Positions 20,621-61,932 of a stretch of 64,000 nucleotides of DNA are shown here, piece by piece. The position numbers were made by a program, and so were the translations under genes. How positions within the stretch are numbered: the stretch's first letter is position 1; each line of letters opens with the position of its first letter. The DNA comes from Amphibalanus amphitrite (taxonomy: Eukaryota; Arthropoda; Thecostraca; Balanomorpha; Balanidae): NCBI RefSeq assembly GCF_019059575.1, contig NW_024882978.1, positions 1 to 64,000 of the forward strand, given 5' to 3'. Under the pieces are notes generated by a model that made no database searches, was not told the DNA's origin, and saw nothing but the letters and a program-made list of their open reading frames with translations.

Positions 20621-23600
20621 TGTTGAGCGCAGAGCCGGCCTTGAACCACTCGATCTGCTGATTGTTCATCGAGTGCTGTAGCTGGATGGTGTCGGTGCTG
20701 CCGTCGGCGTGCTTCAGCACACACTCCACCGGCTGTCGGAGATCAATACACGTTAGTACAGGTCATCAGGGGTCAAGAAAGGTAAACAGAGGTCACCAGA
20801 GGTCAAAAGAAGCCAAAAGGGACCGCATGGACTCACCAAACCTTACCAAGGCTTTGATGTTACTAAAAATCAATGTGCGTCACCCAAAGTTGACATGAGG
20901 TCATCAAAAGTCACGCAGTGTCATTTAGGCCACCAACAACATTTAGAACTACCAGAGCTGGTAACACAAGGCAGCACGACGATGGCAATATGACGGCGGA
21001 GCGCAGAGTGAGGTTCTATCAGTACAGGGACCCGCAGTTGCTTCTGTACACACTAGTATTTCAGCGTATTCTTTGCCTGTGACACCGTTGGAGGCGAATT
21101 GGGAAATTATTGTGTGCTTATTAAAACCACCATCTGAAGGGCTTTAAAATGATGTGCTGCTCTCCTAATTCAGTGAACTTTTAATGGCTATATCAGCAAA
21201 ACATTGTTTTCAGCGCTTTTTCCTGCCCCATTCCTTCTGAAACCTGGAACCGCTTATTCCATTTACTCCTGCCATCTGACGATGGTCGTGCTGACTACTA
21301 GTTCCGGCGCTAGTTACTGCTCCAGTTTTGCACCCGGCACAAACTCAGGCGGCACCGGGCCGTGGCTCGACCAGGGGAGGGTCGGACCGAGCCGACTGCC
21401 TGGGGCGCGGTTAGATCGGACGCCCTGCTGGGGAAGGGGACGGGAGTGAGGGGGAGGGGAGGAGGTGGTCACGTGGTCCGTCCAAGCTCGCAGACGGCCT
21501 GTCCTGCGCCCAGCCATGTTCCGTGATCCAAAATGGCACGAGAGCTGTGGAATGCCTGGAGGAGACGCTTCGAAAGCGAACTTCAGCAGCACTAATTTAC
21601 CATATTCTGTGGAGATAAATGAATATTATCTTAATGCAGAAAAAAATGCATGCCCAAGCTGTATTGGCTGTATCTTTTTAAAAGTTGTAAATAGGATTAT
21701 TCTTAGGGACAATTATAGGTTTCGTATACACAGTGAATTGTGTTACATTGAGCCGTTTCGCTGTTACGGTTACTAACTGAAGAGTTATCCTTTTTTCTCA
21801 CAGGGAATGACAATACAATAACAATACGAATAAAACCAGACGTTTCGCACGAAAAAGTGGCTCCGTCAGTGGCAAGAAATAAGTAATTAGGCATACATGT
21901 TTTCTTTCGCTAAAATCGATGAAGTAGTTATCTTTATTTTTTAAATCTTTTTAGCAGTCTTTTAAGCGCATCATGGAAGCTTATAAACATTTGTGTATTT
22001 TATCGGCAACCCGGCTGGCCAGACCGAGACGGTGCCGCATATAGTTCTCATCGATGTTTAACCTATACACTTATTTTTCTCCAATATTGTCATTGTCCGT
22101 GAGAAAAACATACTCTTATGGACTGGTCTCAGTTCATGTAGAAATTGTTGCATATTCATCAACACAGATAAAATGAATATTAGCCCTCACCACACATATA
22201 AGTAGATGTAAGTTGACCGCGCCCCCTGTTTTTCACCAATAAATCGCGGCAAAGCGAAGGATTGCGACGATTCTTTGGTGCCCTGGAGTTAATCAATTTT
22301 ACAACTTTCCAGAAAATTAAATAGCCCTTATTATTTGTCCATCTTCTCTGAGAATTTTAAATCTTTGAACCAAATTACCTTTAACCCTCGCCCGTAAACG
22401 GTGTTTTGCCACCTTCGCCCATGCAGGGGGGGGGGGGGGTGCGACCCCCCCTGGCGTTTGAAAATGGAGCGTCGTAGAGCTTAGCGGAAAAGACCAACGG
22501 ATTGCTCTCAACGAGATCTCGCGATTGGTGGTATATTTTTTGGTCCTAGGTCAACATTTGACCTACTTATGACCGGTCAAAGGTCAAATTTTCGGAAAAA
22601 TCTAACTTTTTCAGATTTCCGCGCCGATTGCGGCAAAACGGTAAGAGGTATCGACTTGAAACTTTCACTATCGTGATTCTTGATCAATTCTCTATCGTTT
22701 GGTGTGTATTTCGATGTCATAACTCTAAAAATGATGCGTTGGGAGCATCCAGTAACCTAGGATCTCAGCATTGACCGGGACATAAAAATAATTGGCTTTC
22801 TCTCGTCAGCGATGACCAGGACCCTCAAATCATCGGATTTCTCTCGTCACGAGCAGCTCGCTCTTTTTTATTTTTCAGCGAAGCTCTGGCTATTTTTATC
22901 AAGGGCCGAATGGCTGAGAGTTTCTACGCCCCTCCGCTACATGTAAGACGCTGAAAAGAAATGCCTAAGTGGGTGAGGGTTAAATATCGATTGGTTTTTA
23001 AGTGCCGAAGCCCGAAACACTTTAATTTACTTCGATAGCAGTTTTTTAAGACCAACGAGCTCAAATACTATAACTTCTTGAACAATGTAAGCACCACATA
23101 AAATGAATCGTAAGAGAAGCGGCTCAAGATTAAGGAGCTATGAGACACTTAATAAAAAACGGCATAGATTAGAAACTGCACCTAACTTGCACTGATTTTT
23201 AAACCTTTTCGTTGCAGACTGGTAGATTAAATTTTAGGATTGATTTCAGCTGATGCTCAAATGGAGCTATTCATTCGTTCATTCATGCGACCATCCAATT
23301 CCATTCATAAAAGAAGCCAGTGACAAAATTGTTCATTTTAGATAAGTGTGAAATACAAACTCAATAAAAGTTTAATGATACGGCAAATTTGACAGCTTTT
23401 ATAATGAACAGACAAAAAACTTTAACAAATCAAAGTTGAGAGCCCCAAATAGGGGAGAGTGAGGTAAGATGAGCCAAGGGGCAAGTTTAGCCACCCCATG
23501 TTTCTCAGCTCCTATGGCGCTAATTGACTTGAGCTTCCATGTGCCGTTTGCTTACGATGTTCACGTCTTTCACGTCTTTCACGTGAGACGGCAACGTTCT

Positions 23601-26600
23601 CACGCTCAGCACCCGGTAACATGTGGTAACCCCTAATAACTAAGACATGTTTTGCCTTTAAAATGAGATGGTTGTTATCTGCGGTGCATGGTTATTTTCC
23701 TTAGCAGGTGTCAGCCATTAATCGAAAATGACCACGGGTGGGGTAAGATGAGCCATTTTCACCTGGGGTAAGATGAGCCGGATAAGCCATTGTTGTCTCC
23801 GCTGTCGAAAACCAAACTGAGCTGCGCTTGTTTCTGCTGAATAAAAATGGTAGGAAATTGTTTTTTCTTTGTTGATTACACAAGTTGTAAGTGATTTGCA
23901 GATTATCTGAAGGATAATATGATTTCTTCCTTGATAGAAAACTTGACGAGTTATTGGAAGGCTTTAAACAGTTACTTTTTGATGGAGGAAAAAACGTTGC
24001 CATAAGTATGTATGCCATGGAGTAAATAAAAGAGCCCACTCTTCGCCGCGCCCGGGAAAAGAAGAGGTTCGCTTTTTCTATCCATGCTCAACTTTCCCCA
24101 CGACGTGTCTCAACTTACCCCGCCCATGGGGTAAGATGAGCAACGTGCAAGATGATTTTTGACGCAGCCTTTCAGTACAAAAATAAGCGGTATGAAACAT
24201 TTCTGGCCACCATTACATGCGCAAATGACCAAAAGTCCGTCCAAAAGTCCGTCCAACCCGTAAACGCAGAAAAATGATCAGTAAGTTAGCCTGTAGCTTA
24301 CGAAAAAAAACGGCTCAACTTACCTCATTCTCCCCTACGTGACACAATTGAGGGCATTTTTTTTTAGGCCATCACAGTATTTGTCAACAATTGTTGTTTA
24401 GGGGACTGGGGAGGGTGGTTACTGGCTCATTAACTGCCCCCGCCCCCCCCCCCCCAAAAAAAGGAAAGAAAACGAAACCGATCATCCGCGAAAAGAACTA
24501 TTGAGCTCGAACCAAGGTGACGAATCGATTTATAGGTATGCAGGATGACTAACGATGCCACTTGTTGACTTCTTGTGTCAAATGAATTCCATCATCTGGA
24601 TAGCACGTCAACTCTGTGGTATCACTATTTGACATTTTGCAACAAACGTATACTTTTTGGCGCGACTAGCCTCATAAATGTTCTGAAACTAAAACCGTTT
24701 CTTCGCAATTAACTTGGACGACGTCATCCCAGCTTATGCACGACCAAAAAAAGATATCGCTTCAGGATCACTGGCCCGAATTCCAATGCTTAAAGTTTAC
24801 TCAAAGCCGGTGTGGCTGAGGCACTCTTCGCTACATCTCGTGACGGCCACCATTGTGTTGCATTTTTCGGTAAGCTATAAGTTAATAAGGAAAGGAATGG
24901 TGAGTGGGTTGAAAACAGCCCTCACCCTCCACCCCCCCTTCTTCTGGAAACATAAGTAAACGAAAGATCTGGCGATGGTTTATCCACTCTCCTCTGCCGC
25001 CGCGCTGCGAGGCCTCGATTCGATCGGTATGTGGCTTCCTGAGCGGTCCTCCCCGGAGGCAAGGTGAAAGGTCATGGCCTGTATAATAAATTTATACGTT
25101 GCTGAATATGTTTTATAGTTCTTCCAAGGCCTTGGACACCGTTTTATTATATCGGATAAGCATTGCACTTTCTTGTCAATCAATACATCTAAAGAAAACT
25201 TGATCATAATCTTATACTGCGGCAATTGTAGTTCTGCTTACGGTTGCCTCTTTATGATACGGGCCACCACCACCTCCACTGCGCTGGAGCTCTGGCGTTC
25301 TACCCCTCCCCGCTACGGACCGGCCCTCGGGCTAGGTGTGTTAGTACTGAGCGCAAACCTGTAGTAGTCACGTGACTTTCATTCACGTAGCGGGAACGGA
25401 AGCTATAGGCGATACCAAGGACGGGCTCTGGGGAGGCAACCGGCGCGGAAAAATAGCACGATTGTAGTTTTGGAAGAATATCTGTTGCGGTAAGAGGAAT
25501 TATACAAAACAAACGTCCTAGGAGCAAACATGTGTTATTCCTCCATACTTTGCGCTACATTTCATTTCTCCAATGGCCAGCACTTAGCAAATAATAGCGC
25601 AATTCTAAATTGGTAATATATGTGTACAGTAGCAACTGCGGGTCCCTGTACCACTGCTTCCTACCTTCAAAGCACAACTTTACCTTCCCCCATACAATCT
25701 CTCTCCTCTCCAGTGGGCGCAATGTCTCACCTTTCCCGGCGCCAAGTCCTTGAGTCCCTTCAGCGACAGCTTGTCGTCGCTGCGGACCTTGTCGTAGTCG
25801 GCAGCGTTGGCGAAGGTCAGCGGCAGCATACCCTGCTTCTTCAGGTTGGTCTCGTGGATGCGCGCGAACGACTTGACGATAATGGCGCGCCCGCCGAGAT
25901 GGCGCGGCTCCAGCGCAGCGTGCTCGCGAGACGAGCCTGTCGGGAGGAGGGGGAGTGTTAGGGTCCGTGGGGTGGTTCACGCCACCCAGCGTTATCTCAC
26001 CAATGCGGTATATTCGTTTGTAGTTAAAATATGTGAAAAAGAACACGCCTTCATCGTCGTCGACGCCATCTGACATCAAATCACCAGAGTCGGTATGCCG
26101 GTCAGTGTATTAAACAATAAAACCCGACAACCGCCTCAAAGCGTATCAGCTATTAGGCCCCCCGTTGCCACAACCGGTAGGGACTGGCCGCACGCACCAC
26201 AGTGCATCAGTACCTACAATTACATAGTGCCGTGCCGACCGCACACTTCCAATTCAGCTGCACTTAACGCATATGCCTCGCATATCCGAAGTCAGACCAA
26301 AATCCGTCTACCTGTTTACCAGCCTGGCGGCCGGACGATTGCTCGAAATTCGCGCGATCTCATACGTTGGCCAAATGCTCACGCTTCTTCTGTTTCAGTA
26401 TCGCCTGCACATCAAGCCTCCATCGGCCGTGCGTTTCTCGGCATCGCTATCCCTACCTCGGCAGCTTCCAAGCTGTCGTCCATGTGCCAGGCACAATCAC
26501 CTCCCCGCCTCCGTCTCCATCCCCGCCTCCGTCTCCGTCTGCGCCCCGCGCAGCCGACTCCGTCGCCGCTCCGTGTCCTCCTGCAGCAGCTGCAGCTGCC

Positions 26601-29600
26601 GGCACCAGCTGCGGCTGCAGCCGCGCAGCTGCCGCAGCAGCAGCCGCTCCGTGAAACTCAGACTGTCCGTCTCCACCGCAGCAGGTACCGGTGTGACGTC
26701 AGAGACAGTGACGTCACTGGCAGCCGTCAGAGTACCGCGGTCCTCGCACTGAACGGGCGTAACGCTGGCATCCGACACTTCACTCTTTGATTGGTTGTAA
26801 TCTGTATAAAGTGACGTCACTCGATCTGTTGTTGATTCCGATTGGTCCCCGTACTCTCTCGGTGAGGTCACACCACACGCCAACGTTTTTGATTGGTCCA
26901 CAGCCGAGCGGGCTGACAGTACCTCCTCTCCGATTGGTCGCCGTTCGTCCACCTCTCTGGGTGACGTCATCATCCCTGAGCTGACCCTTCTCGGTGACGT
27001 CATCACTGCTGAGCTGACCCTCCTTGGAGTACCCTCTCCATGGCTGGCGTCCCCTGATTCACCGGTATAACTCTGGGGCCGTTCCAAACAGCGAGGAAGC
27101 CGCGCATGTTTCCGCCTTCGTCGGGCTGATGGGAGCGCGGCGATCCGCCGGTGTAGCTCCTCAGGCTCCGGCTTTGCGCCGCTGTCGGTGGCTGACACGG
27201 CCCGAGCCAGGGCCTCCGTCAGTGCCTGCGTGCGGCGGTCGGCCGCGCCGGCGCTCCAGGCGGTGACCTGACCCGGGGTGACCGCGCCGCGAGATTCCAC
27301 GGAGACCAGACTCGAGGTACTTTGCTGAGGTGTTGGAACTGAGGACGGGAGCTGTTTGAGGTCCGGAACTGACCCGAAAGACGCCGAGGGGGATGCAACT
27401 GCTGCAGCGCTAGCCAGTGAGCTACTCGATCCAGTCTTCCCCATGGTATGAGCGCGTCGCCTGCCGGCCGGCCGACCGGTCAGCCCCAGTGTGGAGCCGC
27501 CAGCGATACCGCCGCCGCCGCTACCGTTCCAGCTCAGGGTCCGTCCAGTGGTTCGAACCCCGCCGCGACGTGGGACGCTGGGTGAGGCTGAGGACTCAGA
27601 TAGAGCGCCGGGTACTACCGGTAGGGTGTCTGCGGGACCGAGAGGTCCTCCGAGGGACGTAGATAGACCCTCTGTGGCAGTAGGGAGTCCTGGAACTCCA
27701 CCTCTTCCAGTAGATCCCGGTGGAGTCTGCGGTTGACCCGGTGGCGGTAGTAGGTTCGATAGGGACGCCGCCCGGCGCGGGTCACCCTGTCCCCACCCGG
27801 CCAGTACCGCTCGCTCCTCCGGTACCCTCCTTAGTACCGCTGGTCTCGGTGGTACTAAAGCTGGTGGTCTGGGTGGTGTCGAGCCGATCTCAGTCGGTGG
27901 CCGGGTGGTACTATGCCATGCTCGAGGCGAGTCTGTTACCCCTCGGCCGGTAGGAGGCGGGGACGGGGTGCGCACAGTCAGCCGAGCTCTCGCCCTCTGA
28001 AGTCCCCGCTCTAGACGAAGGAGAGACGATTCCAGATGGCGCCCCGATCGTTCCGCCGGCAGCGGCGGGGGTGGGGGCGGCCGCGGCGGCTCGGGCGGCG
28101 GGGCGGCAGGGGCGCGATGTAATCGATCCAACAGTGCCGCCTTCTCCTCAGCGCTCAGCTCGAGCCGGAGTTGGGCTTCAGCGCGGCCCGGCCGGCGAGA
28201 CAGAGGCACGGCTACCAGCGACGGCAGCGCCGCCCTGGTGTCCGGCGGCGGAACTGAAGCTCCAGGGGGCGCCATCGGAGCCGGCCGCCGCGGCGGCGGG
28301 CGACCTCGCATAGTGCGCGGGAGGTCACATGGGCTTCAGCACTCAGGTGTGTAGAACGAGACAGTCGCAACAGACTTCAGCTAACTACATGGCTCTACAT
28401 AGGGCACCGAGGAAATTCCAAAACTGTGAGATCTAATTGACAGCTTGCTACGTTCTAAAGAAATTAAGCACGTGGAAAGATATTAGGAAACGGTAGGAAA
28501 TTAAAAACAAAACAATAAACAAAGAGGTCTTCACAAAAGGTAGCAGGCGGAGAAGAGATTTCGCAAGCAGACAACAGAAAACTTTGCTCGCGATCTTTTT
28601 AAGCGGGTACCTCTATATTGCCATAAAGGATATAGGAAATGCCGGGCTTTAAATCTGGGGGATGAACTTCATCAATATCAGCTAAAAAAAAAATGACCTC
28701 AGCCCTGCGAACCAGAATGTTTATAGCATTGAAATCAAGCCTGGCATAACTCCCAATCACTCACTCAACCAGCCTCACACTCTCACAGACACCTCCCGGT
28801 TCTCACAGACCCCGCTAACTCACCCTCGCCGTAGTTTTCGTCTCCGACGACCACCCAGCTGATGCCACGGGCCTTGTAGTCGCGCGCGGTGGCCGGCACC
28901 GGGCCGACCTCGCCCGTCACCTGGTTCTTGACCGCGTTCATCTCACCCGTGTCGGCATTCACGGCGCTGTGAGAGCGGTGAGAAGGTTAGAGAGTACGGT
29001 AGGAGGCCGTGGTGAGAGGCGGTGAGAGTGTGAGGTCAGGACGGTTTTAGGATGAGTTTGGTTTTAGGATATACGGGCGGCGAAGGTGTTCAGCGGGACT
29101 CACTAGATAACTCATGCGAGAGAGCTCGAATTTTACGGACGCTTGAGCCCAACGAGGCTATGCGCCCTAACCCAACAAGTACAAGCAAGAGAGAACTCGA
29201 GTAGTGAACTTATTTTGATAATCCGCATAGAGAAGCCACTCACTACCTTGGCAAAGAGGGAACGTCAAAGTTCCTCCAAAAATACAAACATACACATGAT
29301 CGTCAAACCATGAAAAGACGCGACAAATTCACTATTTTAACCCTCGCCGGCACAGGGGGGGGGGGGGTTGATGCAACCCCCCTAAGGTTTTTCGCGAATA
29401 ACTCGCGTAAAAAGCAGCCGATCGCGACGAAACTTTCAGTACCCTTGCACTGATCAATTTTACACCTACCCTGAAAATTTCATGACCCTGACCCCAATGA
29501 CCTTTGACCTGTGACCCCTTTTCTGTGACCATGTTCGGCCGAAATCGCGAATCGGCGTATGTCGCCTCGCATTAGCCGCGCGTTTGCAAGCTTTTCGTGG

Positions 29601-32600
29601 TTTTAAACGTTCAAACATGAGATTTGATGTTGCTCCCATACATTAGGGTGGGGGTCAAGGTCACCTGAAGGTCAGGTCAGGTCATTGACCTTTGGTGACC
29701 TCGGGTAACCTCGGTTCACTTTTTCGAGTTTTACATGTTTCTAGGCTAGTTTTTGGGGCTGAATTCGAATTTAGTAACCATTTGAACATTTACGAAGTAG
29801 TTTTGGTGTCTTCGTAACATGTTACGAAGCTGTCAGAGGCGGTTGACACGTATTACGAATACCCGTCACAACCCCTACCGGTTGACCTGACCTGACCTGA
29901 CCCGACCTGGTCTAAATGCTTAAATACATCATCTCTGGTCAAAACTAACACGATATTCGTGATCAGCACCCCCGAAAACCCCATAGCAGCCACACTTAAC
30001 GACTTTCTAACAGGTCCCGATTTTCCCGGTTTTCGGGTCATTGACCTGACCTGGAAGGTCACCCGATGACCTAGGACCTTAAAATTGGGTATCATCGGCT
30101 TCCTCTCGTGACGGGCAACACGCTCGTTTTTTTTTTCCGCGAAGCTCTAGCTCGATCAGGGGCCAAACGCGAGGGGGGTCGTACCAACTTGTGCCGTCGA
30201 AGGACGCAAAATGGCCTGTGCCGGCGAGGGTTAAGGTACCAAATCACCGTGTATTCAATCTCATTAGTCTCCACATAGCCCACAAAGCCCTTCCCCATCC
30301 CAGTTCCCGTTCCCTACCGGGCCACTCACGTGAGGAACATGTTATTGGAGATGTTGTCCAGGTGCCCTCTGAACTTGAGCCACGGTCCGGCGGCAGAGAT
30401 GTGATCGGTGGTACACTTGCCCTTGACCTTGAGCAGGATGGTGAGGTCGTCGAGGTCCTTGCCGTCCCAGGGCTGGAAGGGCTCCAGCAGCTGGAGACGC
30501 TTCGACTCCGGGTCCACCACCACCTGTAGAGAGCAGAGAGAGGGGTAGAGGGGTAGAGGGAAGGGAAGATCGGTCAAAAGCTGCGGGGTGGTACGGCCTG
30601 ATGAAGTTCATTGAGCGTCCGTGATAAGCGGTCCGTTTATTGGTGATTGTGAAGTTTTTAACGCTAAGAATAAATTTCGATCAATATAGAGTTGCGTCGC
30701 AGCGCTCTATTCGCAAGTGTTGCGAATAGAGCGCTACCTTACTTCAAACACCATAAAAAGTGTCATTTGGATACTTAATCGGCAGCAGTAAAATGTCAAT
30801 AAATCGTTTACAATAAATCGTAAGACAGTTTTACGCTCCATTTGGTCCCCATGCCTCCATCCCACCCGTCCTGTTGTAATCTCCCCCTAAAAACCGTAAT
30901 AATTCTTCCCACCTTTATATTCTGAACAACGCTCTCTTCTTCCCCCTCATGCTTCGATAATCCTAAAACATTTTCCCTCCCCGTACCTTGACGGCGGCGT
31001 TGTCGGTCGGCGGGTGCTGGTACGTGTCCTCGCCGGCGTCAAAGCCGCGGCTGGGCAGCTCGTCTCCGTTGGGCGCCGCCAGTTTAAACTCCTTGCCGTC
31101 CGCGCCCGTCAGCGAGTCCGTCAGAGGGTTGAAGGTGAGCGTTCCGGCCAGCGATAGAGCCGTGGTCAGCTCTGGCGAGGTGACGAACGCGTGGGTGGCC
31201 GCGTTGGCGTCGTTACGACCTGCGAAGGAGAGATGAAGGAAATGTTAGCGGTTCTTATGGTTGCTGAGGTACTCGTGGTAAAAAATAAAATGTGTTGAGA
31301 AAACTGAAGTAATCAAGGCAAAATCTCCAGCCTTCCATTTTTATTCGTCACATATTGCTTAATCCCGTACAACAGTAAATTTAGCTGAGAGAATAATTCA
31401 TACCTATTTGAAAATCGAGTAAGGACTAGGCAAGAGTGGCAAAACATTCGAAAAAAGGCGTTCAAAACAAATACTTCTACTGCATTTGAACCAGCAACGC
31501 CTTTCATAAGCTATCTATCGGCTCTGCACTTCCATCGTTCTTCCCATTTGCAGACTGACCGGTGAAGTTTCTGTTGTAGGACGTGACGATGGTATTTTTC
31601 TCGCCCTTCTTGACGTCCTGCCGGTCCCACTGGCCGATGCAGGGGCCGCAGGCGTTGGCCAGGACGGTGCCGCCAAACTCGCGCAGCGTCTCAGCCTGAG
31701 AGGAGGGAGAGGGGAAGGGTGTGAGGACACACGACCGACCAGCCGGGTGGGGGCGACACAGAAATGTCGCAAAGGAACTCTGAAACGTAAACCCTTAGAA
31801 AACCACGCATGGACACCCAAACTGCCCGCCTTTAACTATAACGTCTACTGTACTACTCAAAGTCCTCTATTTAACTACAATGTCAACTCCCTAAGATACC
31901 CGTCCCCTCCTAGTTTCCAACTCAAATATTTAGTCATGACCATCGTCCAGTCTTTCCCACTCCCTCTTCCAAAAGCAATTCTCTCACACTCTTTCCCAGT
32001 AGGCACTCCCTCCTATCTATCCTCTATAATCACTCACGATGCCGTCCCGCTCGATGGTGGCACGGATCTGTTCCGAGCCGGGCGTCACGTTGAAGGTCGA
32101 CTTGGCCTTGAGACCGTGGTCCATGGCCTGTTTGGCCAGCGAGGCGCACCGGCCCATGTCCTCGTATGACGAGTTGGTGCACGAGCCGATCAGACCTGAG
32201 GGAGAGAGGGGGGTAGAGGGCAGAGTAGAGGTCAGACAGGAGGACGTCAGAGCGGAGGTAAGAGAAGAGATAGGAAAAAACAAGGGAAGTAGCCGAAATT
32301 GGAGGATGATACACTTAAAAAGGTCGTTAAGACAAAATATTGTCAAGGAAGAAAAGGACAGAATTGGGCAGAGAAGAGGCCAGAGGGTCAGGTGAAAAAT
32401 GAGGCAGCAAGGAAAATGGATGGCTGCAAGGGTGCCAAACCCTCTCACAAAACACAAGCCAACGCTGAATTAGTCCACAAAAGCACTAAACCGTTTATAT
32501 TTCTATCATCACGTTCCATTACTTAATCATCAACACAGAGTGACTCTTCCCTCAGCTCTCCACAGAGCTAACAACAGCTTTCTCCCACATCCCTTCTTTC

Positions 32601-35600: not shown

Positions 35601-38600
35601 CAGAAACTGGATACGAGGGCAAAAAGCGCATTTTGTCCTTAGTTGAGGTCGGCAGAATTAATTGTTTGTTTGTTTTGTTGGGTTAGGCCCTTTCGGTCGA
35701 CAAGACCATTGCAGAGCCGGAAGGATGATAGGAGTTAGGGGGAGACATTTGTCTGGGCAGGCACCCTAGTGAGTCGCCGGGGCTGAGCCCGTCCAGAGGA
35801 CATGCCACCCAGCCCCAAGGCACTCACTGCACCCGGCTACGGGGTGCGCTCCCTCAGGAGCAACGGTGCCGCTCTAAGGGAGCAGCCCGCATGAGATAAA
35901 GTTGCCTGTCCAGCCCGGAGGGGGGTTGCGGCGTGGAGGAGAAAGATTTAAGTTTCCTGAGGATAGAAGCATGGAACGGTGGCAGAATTAAAATATACAC
36001 GGGGCTTTAGGGCCTTGCGCGAAGCAGTATGTCGGTTGTGGGCAAGAAAAAGTGGGGCATCGACGAACAAAACTGCCCACAACTTATTATTTAAAACTGC
36101 ATTAAAAGGGCAAGCGAGAAGCAATGATAAAAACCGCTGGGTCCAGAAGAGATCCCTGCAATGCTCCAAATGAAAAGTTATTCCAATCGGACAGCATACC
36201 GTTTATGGTGAACCTCTCTCTGGCATCTATTGGAGTTTTTACGAAGGCGTTAAGTGAGTCACATTTGGAAGCAAATCCTAATAATCCTCATCGCTACTTT
36301 ACCTCTAGGTCATAAAATCATAAGCCTCCCGTAAGGCTAATTCTGCAAATGTAACTTGTTCTATCTTTTTACTGAACCCTTCTAAAACTACATTACCACA
36401 TAACACCGTCATAATAAGTCATACGTCTGTTGTATGATAACATACAACAGACTGCTTATGATCAACAATCATAAAAAGATGGTTGATACAGCCCCACCCA
36501 ATCCGACGCAAGCAGCTGTTTAGAGACAGGACACGCCAGCATATATCATACCCCTGATAACGGGCAAGCTGGGGTCACGAACAGCCCAGTGAAAGTGCTA
36601 CGTCAGAGCACACAGATGAGCAAGATTAGGGGTGCTCCTAGCTTTTCGGTGTTATATCATATCTTGACATGCATTACATAGCATGCCATACCATACATAG
36701 CGTAGGTATATAACCACACTGGTGGAATCAAATAGAAAAGTACGCACATATGAGTCATTTTGGAGTGAGTCAGTCGAAAGAAACAGTAACAACGATCGAA
36801 TCTTAGTAAAACATCGATATGTGTGTTAATCTGGGCCACAGTGCGTCGGAACTAACCGGTTTGCACCGCTGTAAGTGCACTTGTTGAAACAGCGATCACA
36901 CTTGAGAGGACGGCCTATCTCTAATAGAATCACAACTGACTAAATTCGCTCGTGGCAAGACGTGCTCCAATTTTGATAATGACGTCGGCTCCGTGTCTTC
37001 ATCAGTAAAACTGTGACTGGATGTTAATATCACGTATGAATCACACCAATATCCTCTATCCTGTAGTTGGTAGAGCGTTGAACTTTCGGTCCCGAGAGCC
37101 GGGTTCGAGTCGCTCCGTGAACTCAATCTAATATGCTGACCTCCAGTGAGCCCTGCGAATATTGGACCTCAAATGACCCATGAAAGCTGACCTGGGACCT
37201 CCAGTGACGTTACATCTATGACCTTGTCCACCATTAACCTCCATTGACCCCCAGTGACCTCGGACTGACCTGATGGATGATGCCCGATCCGGGTTTCCAG
37301 AATCCCAGGCCGTACTTGGCTCCGGCCGAGGCCAGAAAATCGTACACCTCCTTGTTGATGTCTTTGGCACGCGCCAGATCCTTCACACCACCGACCTGGA
37401 GAGATTGAGAGGGGATAGAGGGTTTTAGATTAGATTCCGCTTGAGATGGCTGGTAGGGTTATGTGGCTATCATGGTATTTAGGTTTTCGCCTTTTAGGGG
37501 CGCCCGGAGAGCATTTGATTACCGGCAAACATGTTTGTAACCATAAAAAAGCTAATGCTAATGCAATAGACTCGTCATTTTTTACAATGTTCCTCGGTTT
37601 TCGATGTCTGCTGATGAGTATGATATCTTGCCATCGGTGTGACACTGATAGCATACAACAGACTAGCCCACTCGAGCATTGCAGATAAGAGATGCTTCTG
37701 CTCTCCATACCAACTCATAGAGGGGACATTGTTCGGTCAGGGGAACCGAGAACTAAAAGTCATTCTCCACCATAACCGGGCTGCCTCAGCACTGCCTGAC
37801 ATTTCTTCTTCATTTCTCAAAATAAAAGTCTTCATTTCTCGCACCTGTGCCTCAATCAGATGATCGCAGTGAATGGTGGACGGCACGGCGACCTGCGGCA
37901 GTCCGGAGCTGATGAACTGCAGCAGGGCCATCTGGGCGGTGGCGTCCTGCAGGGCCACGCGGTCGGGCCGCAGCTGTAAGTAGGAGGTGCCCCGCTCCAG
38001 CTCCTGAGAGGTCGGCTGGTCCAGGTGGCTGTAGAGCACCTTCTCTGAGGCCGTCATTGGACGGTTCAGCCTGACGGGGACGGGGGATCAGCAATTATCA
38101 GAAAAAGAAGCCAGCAGTTCTCCCTAAGAAACAAATTATTGTGACTGATATTAGGAACATCAAGGAATAATGAGTGTCTGGTAAAATTTGCGCAACAGAA
38201 GTGTCTAGGAAATTTACGAAAATGTAATGTAATTTCAACAAAATCAGTGAACTGATATCCAGTAATCATCACCCCATTAGCTGCCACTACACCTGTTTAA
38301 GAAAAAAGGGGCGACCTCAAGAGGAAAAGCAGAGTCGGTTTAGATGAGTGGGCTAAGCGAGTCTCCCTACACCTCTGTATCTCACCTCTTCTTGACGACC
38401 TCGTAGTTCTTCTGGAGCTTGTCGTAGGGTAGCGGGACGTCATCCAGACGGGACATGGCGGCCTTGGTGGCCGCATAGCTGAGCGGCGACTGATGGAAGC
38501 ACCGAGACTGCGTCTGCTGCGACACCGCCCGGCACGCCTGTGGAACAAAGGAACAAAATAAAATTACCTAGAATGTTTGAATGGATGGACATAGCCGAAT

Positions 38601-49621: not shown

Positions 49622-49660
49622 TTCTAACCAAGCGGAACGAACAAAGACCAACCTAAATGG

Positions 49661-49913: not shown

Positions 49914-49972
49914 CATAGGCGGCGGAACGGGGAGGGCACCGGGGCACCGGACCCCCCTTTGATTTTGGCATT
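49914..49972. mobile_element. Left half of a hAT-like MITE, interrupted by a TTAA element
   Basis: CATAGGCGGCGGAACGGGGA through GATTTTGGCATT matches the left part of the complete element at 55035-55189. The match stops exactly at the TTAA, where the next element begins. The missing right half was not found downstream. Confidence 0.75.
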
Positions 49973-50977
49973 TTAACCCGCGCCGTGCTAGGGGGGGGGG
50001 CGTTTTTACGCCCCCCCCCCCCTCAGGTTTTTCGCGAATATCTCAAAAACGGCGGCGCGCAGCGCCGCCGTTTTTGGTACACGTGTTCCTACATCATTTC
50101 CGCACATGTTGTGAAAATTTCAGATCTAGGCCGTTCAAGGTCAGGTCACCAGGTCACGTCAAGTGACCTTACCTCAGAAAAAGTTCAAAGGCTCGCTATA
50201 GCTACACCGACTGAACGATCACTTTGAAACTTTCAGCGATTGATATGAGTAACAGTATGTATAAAATGTATATCTCGGATTTTTGATATCTGTGACCTAA
50301 GGTCAGGTCAATTTTGCGACCTCTCCATTATAAGTCAATGGGAGAAAATTGAAATGCGCCTCTTTTGGACGAATATCGTTCAAAACGCTCTCAAACATCG
50401 GTTCATAGGTAAACATGACACACTGAATAGGAAAAATGCACCTGTGACCCCTCTGTGTGCCCCTGAGGTCATCTCAGGTTATGAACGGTCGCCAGCAGTT
50501 TTTTGGCTATAGCTTTTGATAGAGACGTGCTAGAGCGGTGAAAACACGTCAGATGTGTTCAGCTCGACGATACGGATCGACTGATATGCAACATGACCCT
50601 TTTCGGTCAGGCCATGACCTTGACCTGAGGTCAAATTTTCAAAATGACCTTTCAAGGTCAACAAATAGTTCATTCGACGCGTCTCGACGAGAGGAACACG
50701 ATGCTGGCAAAAGTAATGTCATGGCGCTTATGAGTCAAAAGTTATTGACGAAAAAACGTTTTTCGTAAAAACGGCTATTTTTGGAGTTTTTGCCCTCTGG
50801 AGGCTAAACCGTTGACCTGAGGTCAAATCTGAGAACATTACCCAGAAAGGTCTGTAAAAGGGCTATCGAATGCGCTTTTCCGCGGCGCTGTAGCTCTATC
50901 GGTTCCCGAGATAGCCGTTGGCAGTTTCCAAAATGTTGAAATAGTCAACATTTTACCTTTGGTGTTTACCTTTGGTT
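49973..50977. mobile_element. TTAA MITE (CCCTCGCC family), copy 3, right end lost
   Basis: Starts with TTAA (49973) and CCCGCGCCG, then a G-run hairpin (G10, CGTTTTTACG, C12), then GGTTTTTCGCGAATA as in copy 2. It carries a GC hairpin (GGCGGCGCGCAGCGCCGCC) and many AGGTCA/TGACC half-sites. The interior matches the reverse complement of the element at 60752-61932 along most of its length. No right terminus is seen, and similarity fades near 50977. Confidence 0.75.
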
Positions 50978-51790
50978 GTCCGGTCAATTGTCAGTATGCC
51001 GATGCCGTTATACTTTACTTTCGCAGGCATTTGGGGTTGTGTATTGTGTAAAGTGAGTAGAAACACGGTATAGGGGATGATGATGACATGCTATAAATTG
51101 TAATGTACTCTCCGTTATAACGATGGCCATAGGCCTGGCTGATGGTGCGATGGGCTCAGCACGTATCGCTGAATCAGCGAAATATTGCCAATGCGTACAC
51201 TGCACTCTGCACTCTGCAGTGAAGCCTTTGTTCCGTTTAATCGCATAAACGAACGTTCAATAGCTCAGGTCACTATGTTTATGTCGTTTATGTGATGTAT
51301 CGTTTACGTGATGAGTGATAAAGTGTTCCGTGTTCGTGATAAGTGGAGTAGGTCTTCTTACAGGCGGTCCCGTATCGACGTACATGCGTCTACCTACTGG
51401 AAAGCGGAAATAGTGGAACGAACGGCGCCAATGAGGAGCAATAGATGATGTTGCGTCATGCGTGTCGATCGTTTATATTTTGGCTGTAGTGCGAGATGTC
51501 TGTAAGAATCTTTGTTCAAAGTATGGAGCAGCCTGTTCGTCTTGTGGCGCAATACGGTGTCCGCAAGGCATTGTCGAATGTGTCCCCAGTCCCATCGACT
51601 ATTTGGAGTCGCGAGACGTGAAAGACCCGGTAGTCGTTCTATGTGGAGGTTGACACTTTATTGCATGCAATTTCTGAGAAATGAGACCCTTAATTGTCCT
51701 CAAAATACCCTGGACGGTAGCCCCAGGTAGCTATTTAAAGTCACCGGTCGGGTCAGCGAGTTCGCCCATGTTAGCGCCGGCTAAAAATGC
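50978..51790. other. Unannotated stretch
   Basis: No recognisable gene or element. Open frames are short and unconvincing. Simple GTGATAAGT-like repetition is present near 51290-51350. Confidence 0.4.
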
Positions 51791-53682
51791 GCAGCAGTCA
51801 GGGGCGGATCCAAGGGGGGGGGGGTCACATGGGTCATGCCCCCCCCCCTTGAGGCCCGGGGGCCCAAAGACCTTCCAGGGACACCACCGGCCTATCAGGG
51901 GTATCACAGTCCTGACAGGGGCACCACAGGACCGCCAGGGGCACCACAGGCCTAGCAGGGACACCACGGGCCTGGTGCCCCTGGGCCCTGACAGGACTGT
52001 AACGCCCCTGACAAGCCTGAAGTGTCCCCTGCAGGCACGTGGTGCCCCTGACAGGCCTGAGGCGCCCCTGCAAGGCCGGTGGTGCCCCTGGCAGGCCTGT
52101 GGTGTCCATGGCAGGCCTGTGGTGTCCATGGCAGGCCTGTGGTGCCCTTGCTAGGCCTCTGGTGCCCCTGACAGGCTTGTAATGCCCCTGGAAGGACTGT
52201 GGTGCCCCTGGGCCCTGACAAGCCTGAGGTGCCCCTGACAGGCCAGAGGTGCCCTTGCTAGGCCTGTGGTGCCCCTGGCAGGCCTCTGGTGCCCCTGACA
52301 GGCTTGCGGTGCCCTTGGAAGGACTGTGGTGTCCCTGGGCCCTGACAAGCCTGAGGTGCCCCTGACAGGCCCGTGGTGCCCTTGTTAGGCCTGTGGTGCC
52401 CCTGGCAGGCCTCTGGTGCCCTTGCTAGGCCGCTGGTGCCCCTGGCAGGCCTCTGGTGCCCTTGCTAGGCCGCTGGTGCCCCTGGCAGGCCTCTGGTGCC
52501 CTTGCTAGGCCGCTGGTGCCCCTGGCAGGCCTCTGGTGCCCCTGCGCCCGGAGAGGACTGGTGCCCCTGAAAAGTCTGAAGTGCCCCTCGGCAGGCCCGT
52601 CGTGCCCCTGACAGGCCCAAGGTGCCCCTGCGAGGCCGGTGGTGCCCCTGGCAGGCCTCTGGTGCCCCTGGCAGGTCTGTGGTGCCCCTGGCAGACCTGT
52701 GTTGACTGGTGCCCCTGCTAGGTCGCTGGTGCCCCTCACAGACCTGTGGTGCCGCTGGGCCTTGACAAGCCTGAGATGCCTGGCTATGACAGGCTCGTGG
52801 TGCCCCTGATAGACCAGTGGTGCCCTTGCTAGGCCTGTAGTGCCCCTGGCAGGCCTCTGGTGCCCCTGCTACCCCTGCGCCCTGAGAGGACTATGGTGCC
52901 CCTGAAAAGCCTGAAGTGCCTCTCGACAGGCCCGTGGTGCCCCTGGGCCCTGACAGTCCCAGGTTACCCCTGCGAGGTCGGTGGTGCTTCTGGCAGGCCT
53001 CTGGTGCCCCTGGCAGGTCTGTGGTGCCCCTGGCAGGCCTGTGTTGACTGGTGCCCCTGCTAGGCCGCTGGTGCCCCTCACAGGCCTGCGGTGCCCCTGG
53101 AAGGACTGTGGTGCCCCTGCCCCTAGGGGTGCTCATGGGCCCAACAGGCCCGTTGTGCCCCTGACAGGCCTGTCGTGTATACTTGCTAGACCTGTGGTGC
53201 CCCTGCTTCCTGGCAGGCCTGTGGTGCCCCTGGCGGGCCTGTGGCGCCCCTACAAGGCCGTAGGTGCCCCTGACAGGTTAGTGGTGTCCCTGGAAGGACT
53301 TTGGTGCCCCTGACAAGCCTGAAGTGTCAAGGACAGACCCTTTAGACGCCGTCACGCCAGGGTCAAGTTCGTCGGACTGACAACGATTTGCTTACCTGAT
53401 AACGTTCCTGGTAAGTACTCATTACTCAGCGTCCACACTCCACAACATATATACATAGCACATTCATATATACTTGCTTACAATTGGTAAATGTGGTTTG
53501 TGGCTAAGAGGTAAGATACTGACTAAAAATAAAAAATAAAAATAAAAAACTGAAAATGGGGGCACCACCAAAATGAAGTGGACGAAATCCGTTGAGTTTT
53601 TAATTTTGGGTATAGGTAGGGGCACCACTTCGATTCATGACCCTCCCCTTGGAGTTTTCCTGGATCCGCCCCTGGCAGCAGT
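51791..53682. mobile_element. hAT-like non-autonomous element filled by a minisatellite
   Basis: GCAGCAGT lies on both sides (51791-51798 and 53675-53682), an 8-bp target duplication. The ends are inverted: CAGGGGCGGATCCA at 51799 and TGGATCCGCCCCTG ending at 53674. A CAGGGGCGGATCC terminus with an 8-bp duplication is typical of hAT elements. Most of the interior (about 51880-53330) is a tandem repeat. No transposase is encoded. Confidence 0.9.
51880..53330. repeat. 20-bp minisatellite GGTGCCCCTGGCAGGCCTST
   Basis: About 1.4 kb of units close to GGTGCCCCTGGCAGGCCTCT with variants such as GGTGCCCTTGCTAGGCCGCT. Around 52430-52540 the two variants alternate to give a 40-bp higher-order repeat. 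Some units are 19-24 bp. Every frame stays partly open because 20 bp cycles the reading frame every 60 bp, giving collagen-like spurious ORFs. Confidence 0.95.
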
Positions 53683-54621: not shown

Positions 54622-55034
54622 GAACAGCGCCGGATTCGTTCTTCGCCCCAGAGACGCGATTACTCTTATATGATTCTGATCAGTGATCATTGACCAAAGT
54701 CAAAGTGTACCTATATATCATCATAACCGTACCTAGCAGTAAGCACTAGAATTAGGTATATCATCTGTAGAATGCAGAGCCAGACAACCGAACCGACACG
54801 CCACCTTATTCGCTCTCTCGGCTAACCGTCTTCCGGTTTCAACAGTCAGCAGCCACCGATTCCCCCCAAGGAAACACCGTCCAATTTAGGTGCGCGGCTC
54901 TGGGCCACGGGCGCACCCTGGCTCTCCAATTTTGGAGGAGCCTGAGACGGACAGGGCTGGTTTGAAGACGGTCGGACCCAGGTAAGGCAGCCGAATATCC
55001 GGATGTGTAGGAGTGCCGAGTGGCCGATGGCAGA

Positions 55035-55189
55035 CATAGGCGGCGGAACGGGGAGGGCACCGGGGCACCGTGCCCCCCTTTGATTTTGGCATTTTAACAT
55101 TAGCCCTATGGGAGTTGCATGGAAAGAATGGGACCAAAAGTCGGCAGTGCCCCCCCCCCCCCTTAATTGAGGGTGTTCCGCCGCTACTG
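55035..55189. mobile_element. 155-bp hAT-like MITE, complete copy
   Basis: ATGGCAGA flanks both ends (55027-55034 and 55190-55197), an 8-bp target duplication. The ends are inverted: CATAGGCGGCGGAAC and GTTCCGCCGCTACTG. Poly-C is present near 55151. The interior TTAA at 55093-55096 corresponds to the site where a TTAA MITE entered the other copy at 49914. Confidence 0.8.
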
Positions 55190-55197
55190 ATGGCAGA

Positions 55198-57184: not shown

Positions 57185-58963
57185 ATGGCGAAAGCTCCAG
57201 CGATTGGAATTGATCTCGGGACCACCTACTCCTGTGTGGGAGTGTTCCAGCATGGCAAGGTGGAAATCATTGCCAATGACCAGGGTAATCGGACGACGCC
57301 CAGCTACGTGGCCTTTACCGACACGGAGCGGCTGATCGGAGATGCCGCCAAGAACCAGGTGGCCATGAACCCCAGCAACACGGTGTTCGGTGAGTAATCG
57401 ACGGCACAGTGGAGGATATTTGTATTCGTGAATAAACATGACTGTTATATGGAAATTGGCCGATTTTTTTTCCCGATCGGTTATCACGGCTGAAACTCGG
57501 TTGTTAGAAAATTGCGAAGTTCTTCGCGGTTGAATTGCTACACATTTGCCCGTGTTAAAATGATTTTGAGTGGGGTTTTTTAAAAATATATTTAGCTATC
57601 TGATTATATCACGGTCATATTTATCGGTATTAATTGTGATCCTCTCAATTGAATTACGGTTACGCGGACTGAAATAATTTAGCCGGACCGTTAGAAAAGA
57701 TCGAACTTGTCACCGTTTTCGGCGATTCTGACCCTTGTTTCTCTGCTTTTCACAGACGCCAAGCGGTTGATCGGCCGGCGATTCGACGACACTGCCGTGC
57801 AGTCAGACATGAAACACTGGCCATTCAAGGTCATCAGCGACAGCGGCAAGCCCAAGATCCGCGTCGAGTACAAGAACGAGGACAAGACGTTCGCGCCGGA
57901 GGAGATCAGCTCGATGGTGCTGACCAAGATGAAGGAGACGGCCGAGGCGTACCTGGGCAAGACCGTCACCGATGCCGTCATCACAGTACCGGCCTACTTC
58001 AACGACTCGCAGCGTCAGGCGACCAAGGACGCCGGCGCGATCGCCGGTCTGAACGTGCTGCGCATCATCAACGAGCCCACGGCGGCGGCCATCGCCTACG
58101 GCCTCGACAAGAAGGTCGGCGGCGAGCGCAACGTGCTCATCTTCGACCTGGGCGGCGGCACTTTCGATGTGTCGATCCTTACCATCGAGGACGGCATCTT
58201 CGAGGTGAAGTCGACCGCCGGAGACACTCATCTCGGTGGCGAGGACTTCGACAACCGCATGGTCAACTTCTTCGTCCAGGAGTTCAAGCGGAAACACAAG
58301 AAGGATCTCTCGACCAACAAGCGCGCGCTGCGTCGTCTTCGGACGGCCTGCGAGCGGGCGAAGCGGACTCTGTCGTCGTCGTCACAGGCTTCGATCGAGA
58401 TCGACTCGCTGATGGAAGGCATCGACTTCTACACGTCCATCACCCGCGCCCGGTTCGAGGAGATGAACGCCGACCTGTTCCGCGGCACCCTCGAGCCGGT
58501 CGAGAAGGCGCTGCGTGATGCCAAGATGGACAAGGGCTCCGTCCACGACATCGTCCTGGTCGGTGGCTCAACGCGCATTCCTAAGATCCAGAAACTCCTG
58601 CAGGACTTCTTCAACGGCAAGGAGCTCAACAAGTCTATCAACCCCGACGAGGCTGTGGCGTACGGCGCTGCCGTCCAGGCTGCCATCCTGCACGGCGACA
58701 AGTCTGAGGCGGTGCAGGACCTGCTGCTCCTGGACGTGACGCCCCTCTCGCTCGGTATCGAGACGGCCGGAGGCGTGATGACCGCCCTCATCAAGCGGAA
58801 CACCACGATCCCGACCAAGCAGACGCAGACTTTCACCACGTACTCGGATAACCAGCCGGGTGTGCTGATCCAGGTCTACGAGGGTGAACGAGCCATGACC
58901 AAGGATAACAACCTGCTGGGCAAGTTCGAACTGACCGGCATCCCACCGGCGCCGCGCGGCGTG

Positions 58964-59005
<42 letters not shown>

Positions 59006-59500
59006 ATGAACGTCAGCGCGGCCGACAAGTCGACCGGCAAGGCCAGCAACATCACCATCACCAACGACAAGGGTCGCCTCACCAAGGAGGAGATCGAGCG
59101 CATGGTCAACGAGGCCGAGCAGTTCAAGCAGGAGGATGAGGCCCAGCGGGAGAAGATCTCCGCCAAGAACGCCCTCGAGTCGTACTGCTTCAACATGAAG
59201 TCGACCGTCGAGGATGACAAGGTCAAAGACAAGATCTCCGAGTCTGACAAGACGACCATCATCGACAAGTGCAACGATACCATCAAGTGGCTGGACGGCA
59301 ACCAGCTGGCGGAGAAGGACGAGTTCGAGCACAAGCAGAAGGAGTTGGAACAGATCTGCAACCCCATCATCAGCAAGCTGTACCAGGGCGCGGGCGGCGG
59401 CGCCCCCGGTGGTATGCCCGGTGGGATGCCGGGAGGCATGCCCGGCGGTGACGCCCCCAAGGGAGGCGCCGGCGGCCCGACCATCGAGGAGGTCGACTAA
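57185..59500 (+). CDS. Hsc70: Cytosolic heat shock cognate 70 chaperone
   Basis: Two coding exons (57185-57389 and 57756-59500) give 649 aa, the usual length. Exon 1 ends NTVF and splices within the Asp codon of [12 protein letters not shown]. The ATPase domain shows [13 protein letters not shown] (residues 8-20), [12 protein letters not shown] and [13 protein letters not shown], the three Hsp70 signatures. The substrate-binding domain follows ([20 protein letters not shown]), then the helical lid, GGMPGGMP repeats and the terminal EEVD that binds TPR co-chaperones. No signal peptide or KDEL is present, so it acts in cytosol and nucleus. The internal coding intron plus 5'UTR intron point to a constitutive cognate and not an intronless inducible Hsp70. 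An open antisense frame over exon 2 is a composition artefact. Confidence 0.97.
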
Positions 59501-60751
59501 ACCGACTGATCGCTGGCTGATGAGGGTTCTGCTCACTGTCCGTTGCCGTGAATCTGCGGCCTGCGCTTTCCAATTTATCGTTCATTGTGTATCGCTCGTC
59601 ATTGCTTCGGCCAGTGGCCTCATTGTGGTATATGCTTGTCCCAGAAGTGATATATTGTTTCGCATATGTGGAAATCTGAGGTGAAATACAGAGTTGTGAG
59701 TTATGTTGGCCTGTTTGCACGAACAAGGGGGTGGGGTAATGTTTAGCGGTGGCATAGCGCTGTCAGATCAGAGCCGTTTACATGCAAACGTTTACATCGG
59801 GTCGGTAGATAGTACGAATGAACTGAACAAGAACTGAAGTCGCTAATCGCTGGATGCATCCGATTTCCGTAATCGCTAATTAAGATCTGATGATCTAAAA
59901 CACACGGCGCATTTACCTTGATGAGTGAGGTCACACCCTGGGTCACCGACCATGCCATGGGAGTAGTTGACTTATGCGGTCAGGTGAACCAGCAGTGATT
60001 TCGGAGATTTACTAGGTAAAGGGTGGCGCAAGATGAAGTACACGGACATGTAAGATAATGAAGATGCGGCACGGTAATCCTCAATAGCCAAGTCATTCGT
60101 AAATTCGATACGCAAAGGGACTGCCGGGCATGGTGATGGCGGCAGTTTCCAAATGTTCTTTTCTAGAGACATTTTTCATACTTTTTTGTGAAAGTCTTCA
60201 AAGTCTTCGGTGACGAACGCTACCTATTTCAAACGATTGAGACATATATCACGCAACTGCGACAAAGCCATTTTGAGCTTGCTGCCGGCGCGCGCGTTGT
60301 TGCCGCGCGTGAGGCTCTGGCGAGGAACTCAGTTGCTTAGCATTTGTTGAATTAATTTTTTTTTCAAGGCTAGTGACTAAAGATCATCAGAAAAAGCAAT
60401 CGGTATAAGTGGCCGATTTATTTTGCATATTACTGTCGCGACTCAAAGGTGAGTTTCAAAGCAAAATGAGACTGAAATGATGGCAGATGTGGCTTAAATT
60501 GTAATTGCTATTTATTCCATTAAATATGGCTCCATTTAATAAAATTATCCTAGCATAAATTCCATCGAAATGTCTGAAAAGATTGGTGACTTGTGTTTGT
60601 GAAGCTAGGGCTATCAACACTATGAAAGCATGCCAATTGCCACTTGTGCTGCTAATCTCGTATCTACTTGCCACCTTCCCCGTCTAGGTGTCTCACTTGT
60701 AGTGAGTCACTGCAAAGTCGCAGGTATTCTGGGCTATCAATAAGCAAAGAC
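59501..60751. other. Intergenic stretch downstream of Hsc70
   Basis: Contains the Hsc70 3'UTR. No other gene is apparent and no canonical AATAAA was found near the stop. Confidence 0.4.
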
Positions 60752-61932
60752 TTAACCCGCGCCCCAGTGGCGGTCTCGGCCAACTTCGCCCTAGTGAGGG
60801 GGGCATATGTTACCACCCACCTCTAACTCAAAAACTAAGAGGGCTAGAAAGACGCGGTAAAAAGCAGTCGATAGCTCTCAATACGTACGTTTGAAAGTAT
60901 TTCGGTCATTTTTCACCTTAGAGCAATATTGGGGTCACCAGAGGTCATCAAAGGTCAAAATTTGTCAATTGTCATTATATTTTTCAGAAAACATGCCGCT
61001 ATCTCAGGAACTATGGTAGCTAGAAAAACGCATGGAAAAGCAATCGATAGCTTTTGAACTCTTCTTTTGAAAAGGTCATTTTAAATATTGTCCTCAGGTC
61101 AACGGTTTAGCCTCCAGAGGGCAAAAACTCCAAAAATAGCTGTTTTTACGAAAAGTGTTTTTCGACAATAACTTTCGACTACAAAAAGCCACGACATTTC
61201 TATTGCCAGAATCGTGTTCCCCTCACCGAGACGCGTCGAATGAACTATAATTTGACCTTGAAAGGTCAACTTAAAAATTTGACCTCAGGTCAAGGTCATG
61301 ACCTGACCGGAAAAGGTCATGTTGCATATCAGTCGATGCGTCTCAACAAGACAAACACAATGAGACCATCCCCAGCGTTCTATCTCTTTCCAATCGCGAG
61401 TTATTGGCAAAAAACTGTTTGTAGCCTCAAATGACCTCGGATGACCTTTCTAGAGGCTATCAGCAAAAATGACACCTTGGTCATCACGAGTGGACTAAAT
61501 CATTGTGATTCTGAAATATTTGGACTGTTCCTATGCGTACACACGGATCTAGAGGCATTTTCATTTTTCTCCATTGACTTGTAATGGAAAGGTCATGCCA
61601 CTGACCTGACCTTAGGTCACGGATATAAAAAATCCGAGATATACAACTTGTACGCTCCCATAACAGCATGCAATCCACCAAGTTTAAAACCTTTCTAACA
61701 AACACTGCAGGCTGGACATGATTGCAAACTTTTTTTTAAGGCTTGGTCAGTTAACTTGACCTGGTGACCTGACCTGACATGACCTGGGGTCAAAAATTTC
61801 ACACATTGTCCAAAATTGATGTACCAAAAGCTACCCCAAGCGGCGCGGCGCTACGCGCCGCGATTTTTATTCACACGCGAAAAACGCGACAGGGTGGTAA
61901 CATATGCCCCCCCCCACTGGGGCGAAGGTTAA
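60752..61932. mobile_element. TTAA MITE (CCCTCGCC family), copy 4, intact and inverted
   Basis: TTAA at 60752-60755 (followed by CCCGCGCCCCAGTGGCGG) and at 61929-61932 (preceded by CCCACTGGGGCGAAGG). It is inverted relative to the copy at 49973. The right end has the C-run and GCATATG hairpin, then the GC hairpin near 61840-61860. The interior is full of AGGTCA/TGACC half-sites and shares long stretches with copy 3, such as TCATGACCTGACC and GAGACGCGTCGAATGAACTA. Confidence 0.85.

Follow-up and report, generated by a model that had tools for sequence, protein, structure and literature searches.

Conserved GGTCA/TGACC arrays in short piggyBac-type elements of Amphibalanus amphitrite

The stretch of DNA analyzed here, referred to as the window, comprises positions 1 to 64,000 of contig NW_024882978.1 of Amphibalanus amphitrite (assembly GCF_019059575.1; contig C1481 in our numbering). 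As the initial annotation had recognized, it contains TTAA elements loaded with AGGTCA, the half-site of nuclear hormone receptors. The locus raises the questions of what kind of mobile element these are, whether the arrays of GGTCA and its complement TGACC inside them are more than a by-product, and what would read them. The copies almost certainly belong, as short non-autonomous elements, to one large lineage of the piggyBac superfamily and are presumably moved by the transposases of related full elements; their arrays very probably act in cis and are maintained by selection on the element. The reader that we tentatively favor, from sequence comparison, is the lineage's own transposase, which would bind the arrays through a Cys/His-rich C-terminal region. 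The four window elements are numbered copy 1 (22-kb), copy 2 (29-kb), copy 3 (50-kb), and copy 4 (60.7-kb). They and the features associated with them are located as follows, the strand being plus when the end that carries a second copy of the tip lies at the left.

22381..22983, plus strand: copy 1, 603 bp, non-autonomous piggyBac-type, TTAA at both ends, 7 GGTCA; second copy of the tip 27 bp inward from the left end
29337..30234, minus strand: copy 2, 898 bp, TTAA and perfect tips of 16 bp, 23 GGTCA; second copy of the tip 27 bp inward from the right end
49973..50993, minus strand (from alignment to copy 4): copy 3, 19 GGTCA; only the left tip is present, the right end having been lost
60752..61932, plus strand: copy 4, 1,181 bp, tips CCCGCGCC and CCTTCGCC plus TTAA, 27 GGTCA
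22180..22330, minus strand: decayed remnant of a fifth element's left end, immediately to the left of copy 1 and colinear from the tip with the left end of copy 2
61214..61360, plus strand: cluster of half-sites at the center of copy 4, lying within a larger inverted repeat
60798..60818, plus strand: left copy of an inner repeat of 21 bp in copy 4; its distance from its tip exceeds that of the right copy by 26 bp
61892..61912, minus strand: right copy of the same 21-bp inner repeat

TTAA flanks had been reported for all four copies; they are present, with inverted tips, at both ends of copies 1, 2, and 4, but copy 3 has only its left TTAA tip. Position 50977, given as the other end of copy 3, is not an element end, and the alignment of copy 3 to copy 4 stops at 50976 (60937 in copy 4). 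A TTAA target duplication is indicated by the TTAA at both ends of three of the four copies and by the single TTAA in an unfilled relative of the copy 3 site at 55037-55186 (64 bp at 96.9% identity). Copy 3 begins at the TTAA of a mini-element, 150 bp long, whose inverted ends are imperfect and of the TAGGCGGCGGAAC type (49914-49976; 55037-55186), and it interrupts one copy of this mini-element; the right half of the interrupted copy was not found within the window. Six of the seven window tips begin with CCC and one with CCT. The CCC(T/G)CGCC form proposed for the ends fits five of them, the remaining two being CCCTCACC and CCTTCGCC. CCCTC is among the tip motifs given for piggyBac (PMC10813416).

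The two ends differ in their subterminal structure. At one end of copies 2, 3, and 4, the tip is followed by a G-run hairpin, and at the opposite end a second tip copy lies 27 bp inside, with matches in copies 1, 2, and 4 of 10/14, 12/14, and 10/14 (shuffle P of 0.014, 0.0002, and 0.043); in copy 1, the G-run comes after the second tip copy. Among 25 paired elements, an inner match of at least 8/12 at 27 bp was found at exactly one end in 15, at neither in 9, and at both in 1, and the best match of at least 8/12 fell at displacement 27 in 14 of the 50 ends, the next commonest displacement being 26 (4 ends). In the Trichoplusia ni (T. ni) piggyBac, bp 34-63 of the right end nearly repeat bp 7-35 of the left end (PMC7351741). 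The elements share with that transposon and its superfamily TTAA, CCC tips, a one-sided tip-like repeat displaced by 27-28 bp, and DDE_Tnp_1_7 in partner elements, but they differ in their internal GGTCA arrays, in the G-run hairpins by the tips, and in another C-terminal Cys/His pattern. Kolobok membership was rejected: the T2-MITEs of that group share the TTAA target, but their tips are AG/RR (PMC6004289), and the tips here are CCC or CCT. Terminal inverted repeats, high copy number, and the lack of a transposase gene, which characterize miniature inverted-repeat transposable elements (MITEs), were all found. The longest stop-to-stop frames over copies 3 and 4 are of 102 and 132 amino acids, the latter extending beyond the element, and are too short for a piggyBac transposase; mobilization would be in trans, by transposases from the same genome.

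In the assembly of 807,550,619 bases (807.55 Mb), the exact tip TTAACCCKCGCC occurs 34,791 + 34,961 = 69,752 times, against 62 + 55 = 117 for the reversed control. With two tips and ~1 kb assumed per element, we estimate ~35,000 elements, which would account for about 4-5% of the genome; in the window, the four stretches occupy 5.8% of the sequence. The window copies had been described as a single family, but they fall into several related sub-families. Copies 3 and 4 are related in opposite orientation (69.9% identity over 985 columns by blastn, 64.5% over 1,012 columns in a global alignment), copies 1 and 2 have a right-hand stretch of 90 columns in common, and copies 2 and 3 have a left-hand stretch of 72; a tile comparison with the half-sites masked agrees with these relations. 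Copy 2 lies in an aconitase gene, as had been suggested. It sits between two mitochondrial aconitase exon matches on the minus strand that adjoin at residue 592/593 of the solved aconitase, and a third exon match is at 25683-25976.

The interiors are saturated with GGTCA/TGACC, as had been noted by eye: the four stretches contain 75 occurrences in their 3,687 bp (20.3/kb), compared with 148 in the remaining 60,313 bp (2.45/kb), and the earlier figure of about 23 for copy 2 is exact. With copy 3 taken to 50977, copies 1-4 contain 7, 23, 18, and 27 occurrences, compared with means of 0.9-2.2 and maxima of 6-9 under a first-order Markov model. In the rest of the window, Markov models of orders 1 and 2 predict on average 129 and 142 GGTCA (147 observed) and 32 and 37 AGGTCA (45 observed); because this sequence lies near its own compositional expectation, the excess is attributable to the elements. 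Short clusters also exist at a few places outside them, including 20761-20899, which is partly a ten-base tandem repeat, and 37137-37266. At 20 further tips among the places listed for one contig, GGTCA density has a median of 17.5/kb (range 2.3-24.1), with 15 at 10/kb or above; where a tip had no partner, the whole 1.29 kb was counted. The first 20 stretches included 17 tip pairs with 11.3-23.4 GGTCA/kb, of which two (3,109 and 3,889 bp) were later dropped as apparent false pairings across neighboring elements.

The half-sites are much better conserved between copies than other positions, the opposite of the sequence part of what the initial annotation had named as grounds for abandoning its reading. 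From copy 3 to copy 4, 16/19 half-sites are kept, and from copy 4 to copy 3, 16/26, versus 21% of other non-CpG 5-mers in either direction. When the half-sites were masked before these two copies were aligned, the same number coincided, and at most 3 did so in 1,190 slides. In an unmasked survey of 209 pairs from 21 sequences (19 elements and the two flanks of the transposase-bearing relative C33, described below), the fractions of half-sites and of other non-CpG 5-mers kept were, in falling classes of identity to 0.58, 0.944/0.829, 0.909/0.539, 0.807/0.463, 0.785/0.172, and 0.653/0.140; words of permuted letters gave 0.869, 0.652, 0.561, 0.271, and 0.265 in the same classes. Alignment attraction may contribute to the values for pairs below 0.58 (0.364/0.103 and 0.204/0.053).

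Alignment attraction as the source of the conservation is countered by masking and by unrelated pairs. Half-sites were hidden during alignment, and positions were classed by the local identity of the unmasked letters; the resulting cells are not independent because pairs share sequences. For pairs of 0.58-0.75 identity, 96/101 half-sites (95%) versus 749/1530 other 5-mers (49%) were kept where local identity was at least 0.8, 112/180 versus 1058/5189 at 0.6-0.8, and 90/183 (49%) versus 359/8693 (4%) below 0.6. Pairs of 0.75-0.93 gave 372/441 versus 7306/12764 at high and 96/120 versus 953/3925 at middle local identity, and pairs above 0.93 gave 364/398 versus 9255/11378 and 2/2 versus 85/130. 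Unrelated pairs kept 0/3 (high), 2/43 (middle), and 8/566 (low, ~1%). Column by column, the contrast is weaker (0.78-0.83 for core columns, 0.58-0.78 for those around the core), which fits the retention or loss of sites as whole units. Private changes in three sub-families, from 16 aligned copies of which one at 0.785 identity was left uncounted, number 14/1790 in half-site columns, 230/12043 elsewhere, and 78/3520 in permuted-word columns. Two observations weigh against selection on the element: in pairs of 0.75-0.93, the cell of low local identity has 0/6 half-sites kept versus 77/675 others, and fewer private changes in young copies fit element-level selection only if there are several masters.

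The genome has at least 116 matches to PF13843 (DDE_Tnp_1_7), 116 being the number scored out of 232 candidates; the best has an E of 8.9e-88, and many lie in open frames of 550-680 amino acids. Flanks were fetched for twelve transposase loci, and tips of the present type were found, on both sides of the domain matches, at C33 and at C527/C44. C33 is the closest in its tips, with TTAACCCGCGCCCTGGTGTG at one side and TTAACCTTCGCCCTGGTGGG at the other, the same pattern as in copy 4; those of C527/C44, CCCTAGAACGCCTAGG and CCCTCGCACGACCAGG, are a few letters off TTAACCCKCGCC, and CCCTCGCACGACCAGG with TTAA occurs 806 + 882 times in the genome (control 0). At 27 bp, C33 has an inner match of 10/12 and C527 one of 8/12, at one end each. 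Bases 1-696 of copy 4 match bases 1-692 of the C33 left flank at 72.4% identity, its bases 807-901 and 980-1033 match the right flank in order, and its bases 526-552 give a 27-bp out-of-order match to the right flank. In two copy-3-type relatives, L063 and L070, the match to the C33 left flank starts at base 1 and the match to the right flank reaches the end of that flank, and copy 1 matches the C527 right flank at 84.7% identity over 313 bp. A single deletion junction relative to C33 shared by copy 4, the copy-3 group, and group C, in all three of which the right-flank matches begin at ~1636-1647, was considered and rejected. One gene-less ancestor is not proven because the conserved blocks are patchy and because of the out-of-order match in copy 4.

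The flanks of these relatives carry the arrays as well, mostly outside the open frame, at 11.0 GGTCA/kb for C33 and 8.6/kb for C527, compared with 0-4.3/kb at eight other loci (C642, C264, C18, C392, C8, C1201, C43, and C53); C44, of the same lineage as C527, and C72 were left out of this comparison. At C72, which itself has no assigned tips, the GGTCA-rich far flank starts near a separate TTAACCCGCGCC tip. On contig C8 (L071, L072), a 604-residue piggyBac element with its own CCCATTAGTGCCCA tips is nested inside a GGTCA element, and the match score of its type, 258.7 bits, is identical at nine places among those listed in the genome, which suggests recent activity. By eye, the C termini of C33 and C527 have CxxC-n21/23-CxxC-x4-CxxH..CxxC in common, and those of seven readable other loci are CxxC...C..(F/Y)H-like.

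Arrays in the flanks of transposase-bearing relatives suggest use by the element first. In piggyBac and piggyBat, dimers of the C-terminal Cys-rich domain (CRD) bind imperfect palindromes, each transposase its own (PMC7351741, PMC11707139), and PGBD3 binds MER85 at a palindrome of 16 bp that is also present within the PGBD3 transposon itself (PMC3459987). Because known piggyBac C termini bind palindromes and because C33 and C527 share a distinct C-terminal pattern, we tentatively favor the transposase as the reader. Its C-terminal Cys/His-rich region would bind the GGTCA/TGACC arrays, and the many internal sites would raise the local concentration of transposase or help to assemble the ends. 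MER85 is likewise a gene-less piggyBac derivative moved in trans whose transposase-read palindrome is repeated in the full element, but it has 140 bp, one palindrome, and 889 copies (PMC3459987), compared with mostly 0.6-1.2 kb for the paired elements here, ~7-28 GGTCA, and tips in the tens of thousands. The piggyBat element of Myotis also has repeated motif-plus-palindrome units bound by CRD dimers, but its three units lie at the left end, its right end lacks the palindrome, and its motif is unrelated (PMC11707139).

Several points weigh against the transposase as the reader. The palindromes nearest the tips are G-run/C-run hairpins and not GGTCA, the arrays lying farther inside. At four of the eight comparison loci (C264, C18, C392, and C53), both tips were not found, and the flank counts there therefore include unassigned DNA. 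No C..C pattern was found at the C terminus of C18, the C-terminal frame of C44 departs from that of C527, and Pfam named neither type of C terminus, giving one sub-threshold zinc-finger match. The putative link between C-terminal type and arrays compares two array-bearing lineages with eight loci, some of them related (C642 and C392 are alike).

Host nuclear receptors are a serious rival, although on the sequence evidence we consider them somewhat unlikely. They would read the arrays as monomers or dimers on AGGTCA, the element would gain transcription or opening in the right tissue, and the copies would act as hormone-response modules or as a receptor sink. The preferred unit is indeed AGGTCA, position -1 being A in 372 of the 477 observations of aligned sites (the same sites recur across pairs). 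Genome-wide, the perfect inverted repeat with 1-bp spacing (IR1), AGGTCAnTGACCT, occurs 20,300 times (control 27) and the corresponding everted repeat (ER1), TGACCTnAGGTCA, 56,977 times (control 44). Among 204 RGKTCA sites of 11 lineages, receptor-type spacings of direct repeats (DR) and inverted repeats are present (DR4, 22 pairs; DR5, 8; DR1, 5; DR2, 4; IR1, 4), as are DR0 (12) and ER1 (10), but the commonest arrangement is the direct repeat overlapping by 5 bp (34 pairs), which two receptors can hardly share. Of the canonical pairs in copy 4 (DR1-5, IR0-1), 1/6 is kept in copy 3, compared with 2/2 overlapping and 2/3 ER1 pairs, and the sole canonical pair of copy 3 is kept in copy 4. This argument is small, resting on pairs kept between one pair of copies, and the abundance of IR1 makes the case from arrangement against receptors at most moderate. 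Fewer private changes at the sites in young copies would also fit receptors, but gene-less elements have no obvious gain from a promoter. A precedent is offered by Alu, a retroposon. Alu-borne DR2 retinoic-acid response elements likewise spread AGGTCA-type sites with a mobile family, and several recruit retinoic acid receptors, but their pair arose largely by CpG deamination, and they do not form an array conserved between element lineages (PMC1785376). That work was the nearest found; among the titles and abstract beginnings listed in literature searches, none described GGTCA arrays in a DNA transposon.

That the arrays are a structural by-product is improbable. Slippage would create the 5-bp direct repeats, template switching the inverted ones, and exchange between copies would keep blocks alike, in keeping with the 5-bp-periodic arrays and nested palindromes, with interiors that fold better than shuffles (an excess largely due to the half-sites), and with the patchiness of copies 3 and 4, whose 40-column identity ranges from 0.30 to 0.93. 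But sites are kept where their surroundings are less than 60% identical and hardly ever coincide in unrelated pairs, and exchange of blocks would bring the flanking letters too. Repeat growth by slippage without function, which the initial annotation had considered equally possible, is therefore disfavored, as slippage alone does not explain the conservation in masked alignments. Selection for palindromes or hairpins as such (cruciform, structured RNA, or small-RNA precursor) and not for a protein-bound word is the least probable explanation, because DNA folding z values of -7.8 for copy 2, -4.9 for the interior of copy 4 and -6.4 for that of copy 3 (each against 20 shuffles), and -5.8 for the central cluster of copy 4 are offset by weaker values for other clusters (-1.6 to -3.5; -2.8 and -3.1 for the copy 3 counterpart of the central cluster), by RNA parameters giving -2.0 to -4.3 where 3 of 13 background windows reach -2.6, -3.5, and -4.6, and by two-sided changes between copies 3 and 4 in 21 of 172 pairs, a count that is circular in that the structure was chosen on the same alignment.

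Searches with TGACCTnAGGTCAAGGTCA gave 39 prokaryote and 3 IMG/VR matches, none of the 42 having more than 11 GGTCA in the surrounding 1,019 bp, with density as the sole basis of judgment; copy 4 had no match among phages, and four further viral pattern scans were empty. Rfam at the gathering threshold found only a tRNA. Elsewhere in the window, 14727-16021 contains two perfectly complementary 424-nt inverted repeats around 447 nt, the perfect arms suggesting a recent event; an open frame there at 15154-15729, presumably Penelope-like, matches GIY-YIG weakly (E 0.0016, short of the curated cut-off). At 51986-53321, a GC-rich unit of 20 bp forms a 1.3-kb array with overlapping open frames, and an HSP70-type coding frame at 57695-59500 ends in EEVD and matches known chains from about residue 68 onward.

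The interiors of short transposons are usually regarded as filler. Here, a word of 5-6 bp keeps its place across lineages, even amid letters with little in common, both in copies without a gene and in the flanks of a relative that bears a transposase. It is possible, though doubtful on present sequence evidence, that a piggyBac lineage making up an estimated ~5% of the genome has evolved or maintains a receptor-type half-site array as its best conserved interior feature, with its own transposase, carrying a convergent AGGTCA-reading Cys/His domain, as a possible reader. Whichever protein reads the array, tens of thousands of perfect IR1 and ER1 palindromes would lie within reach of the host receptors, and transposon activity and hormone signaling might be coupled. 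The finding raises the question of what effect 56,977 ER1 and 20,300 IR1 palindromes may have on the nuclear receptors of the host.

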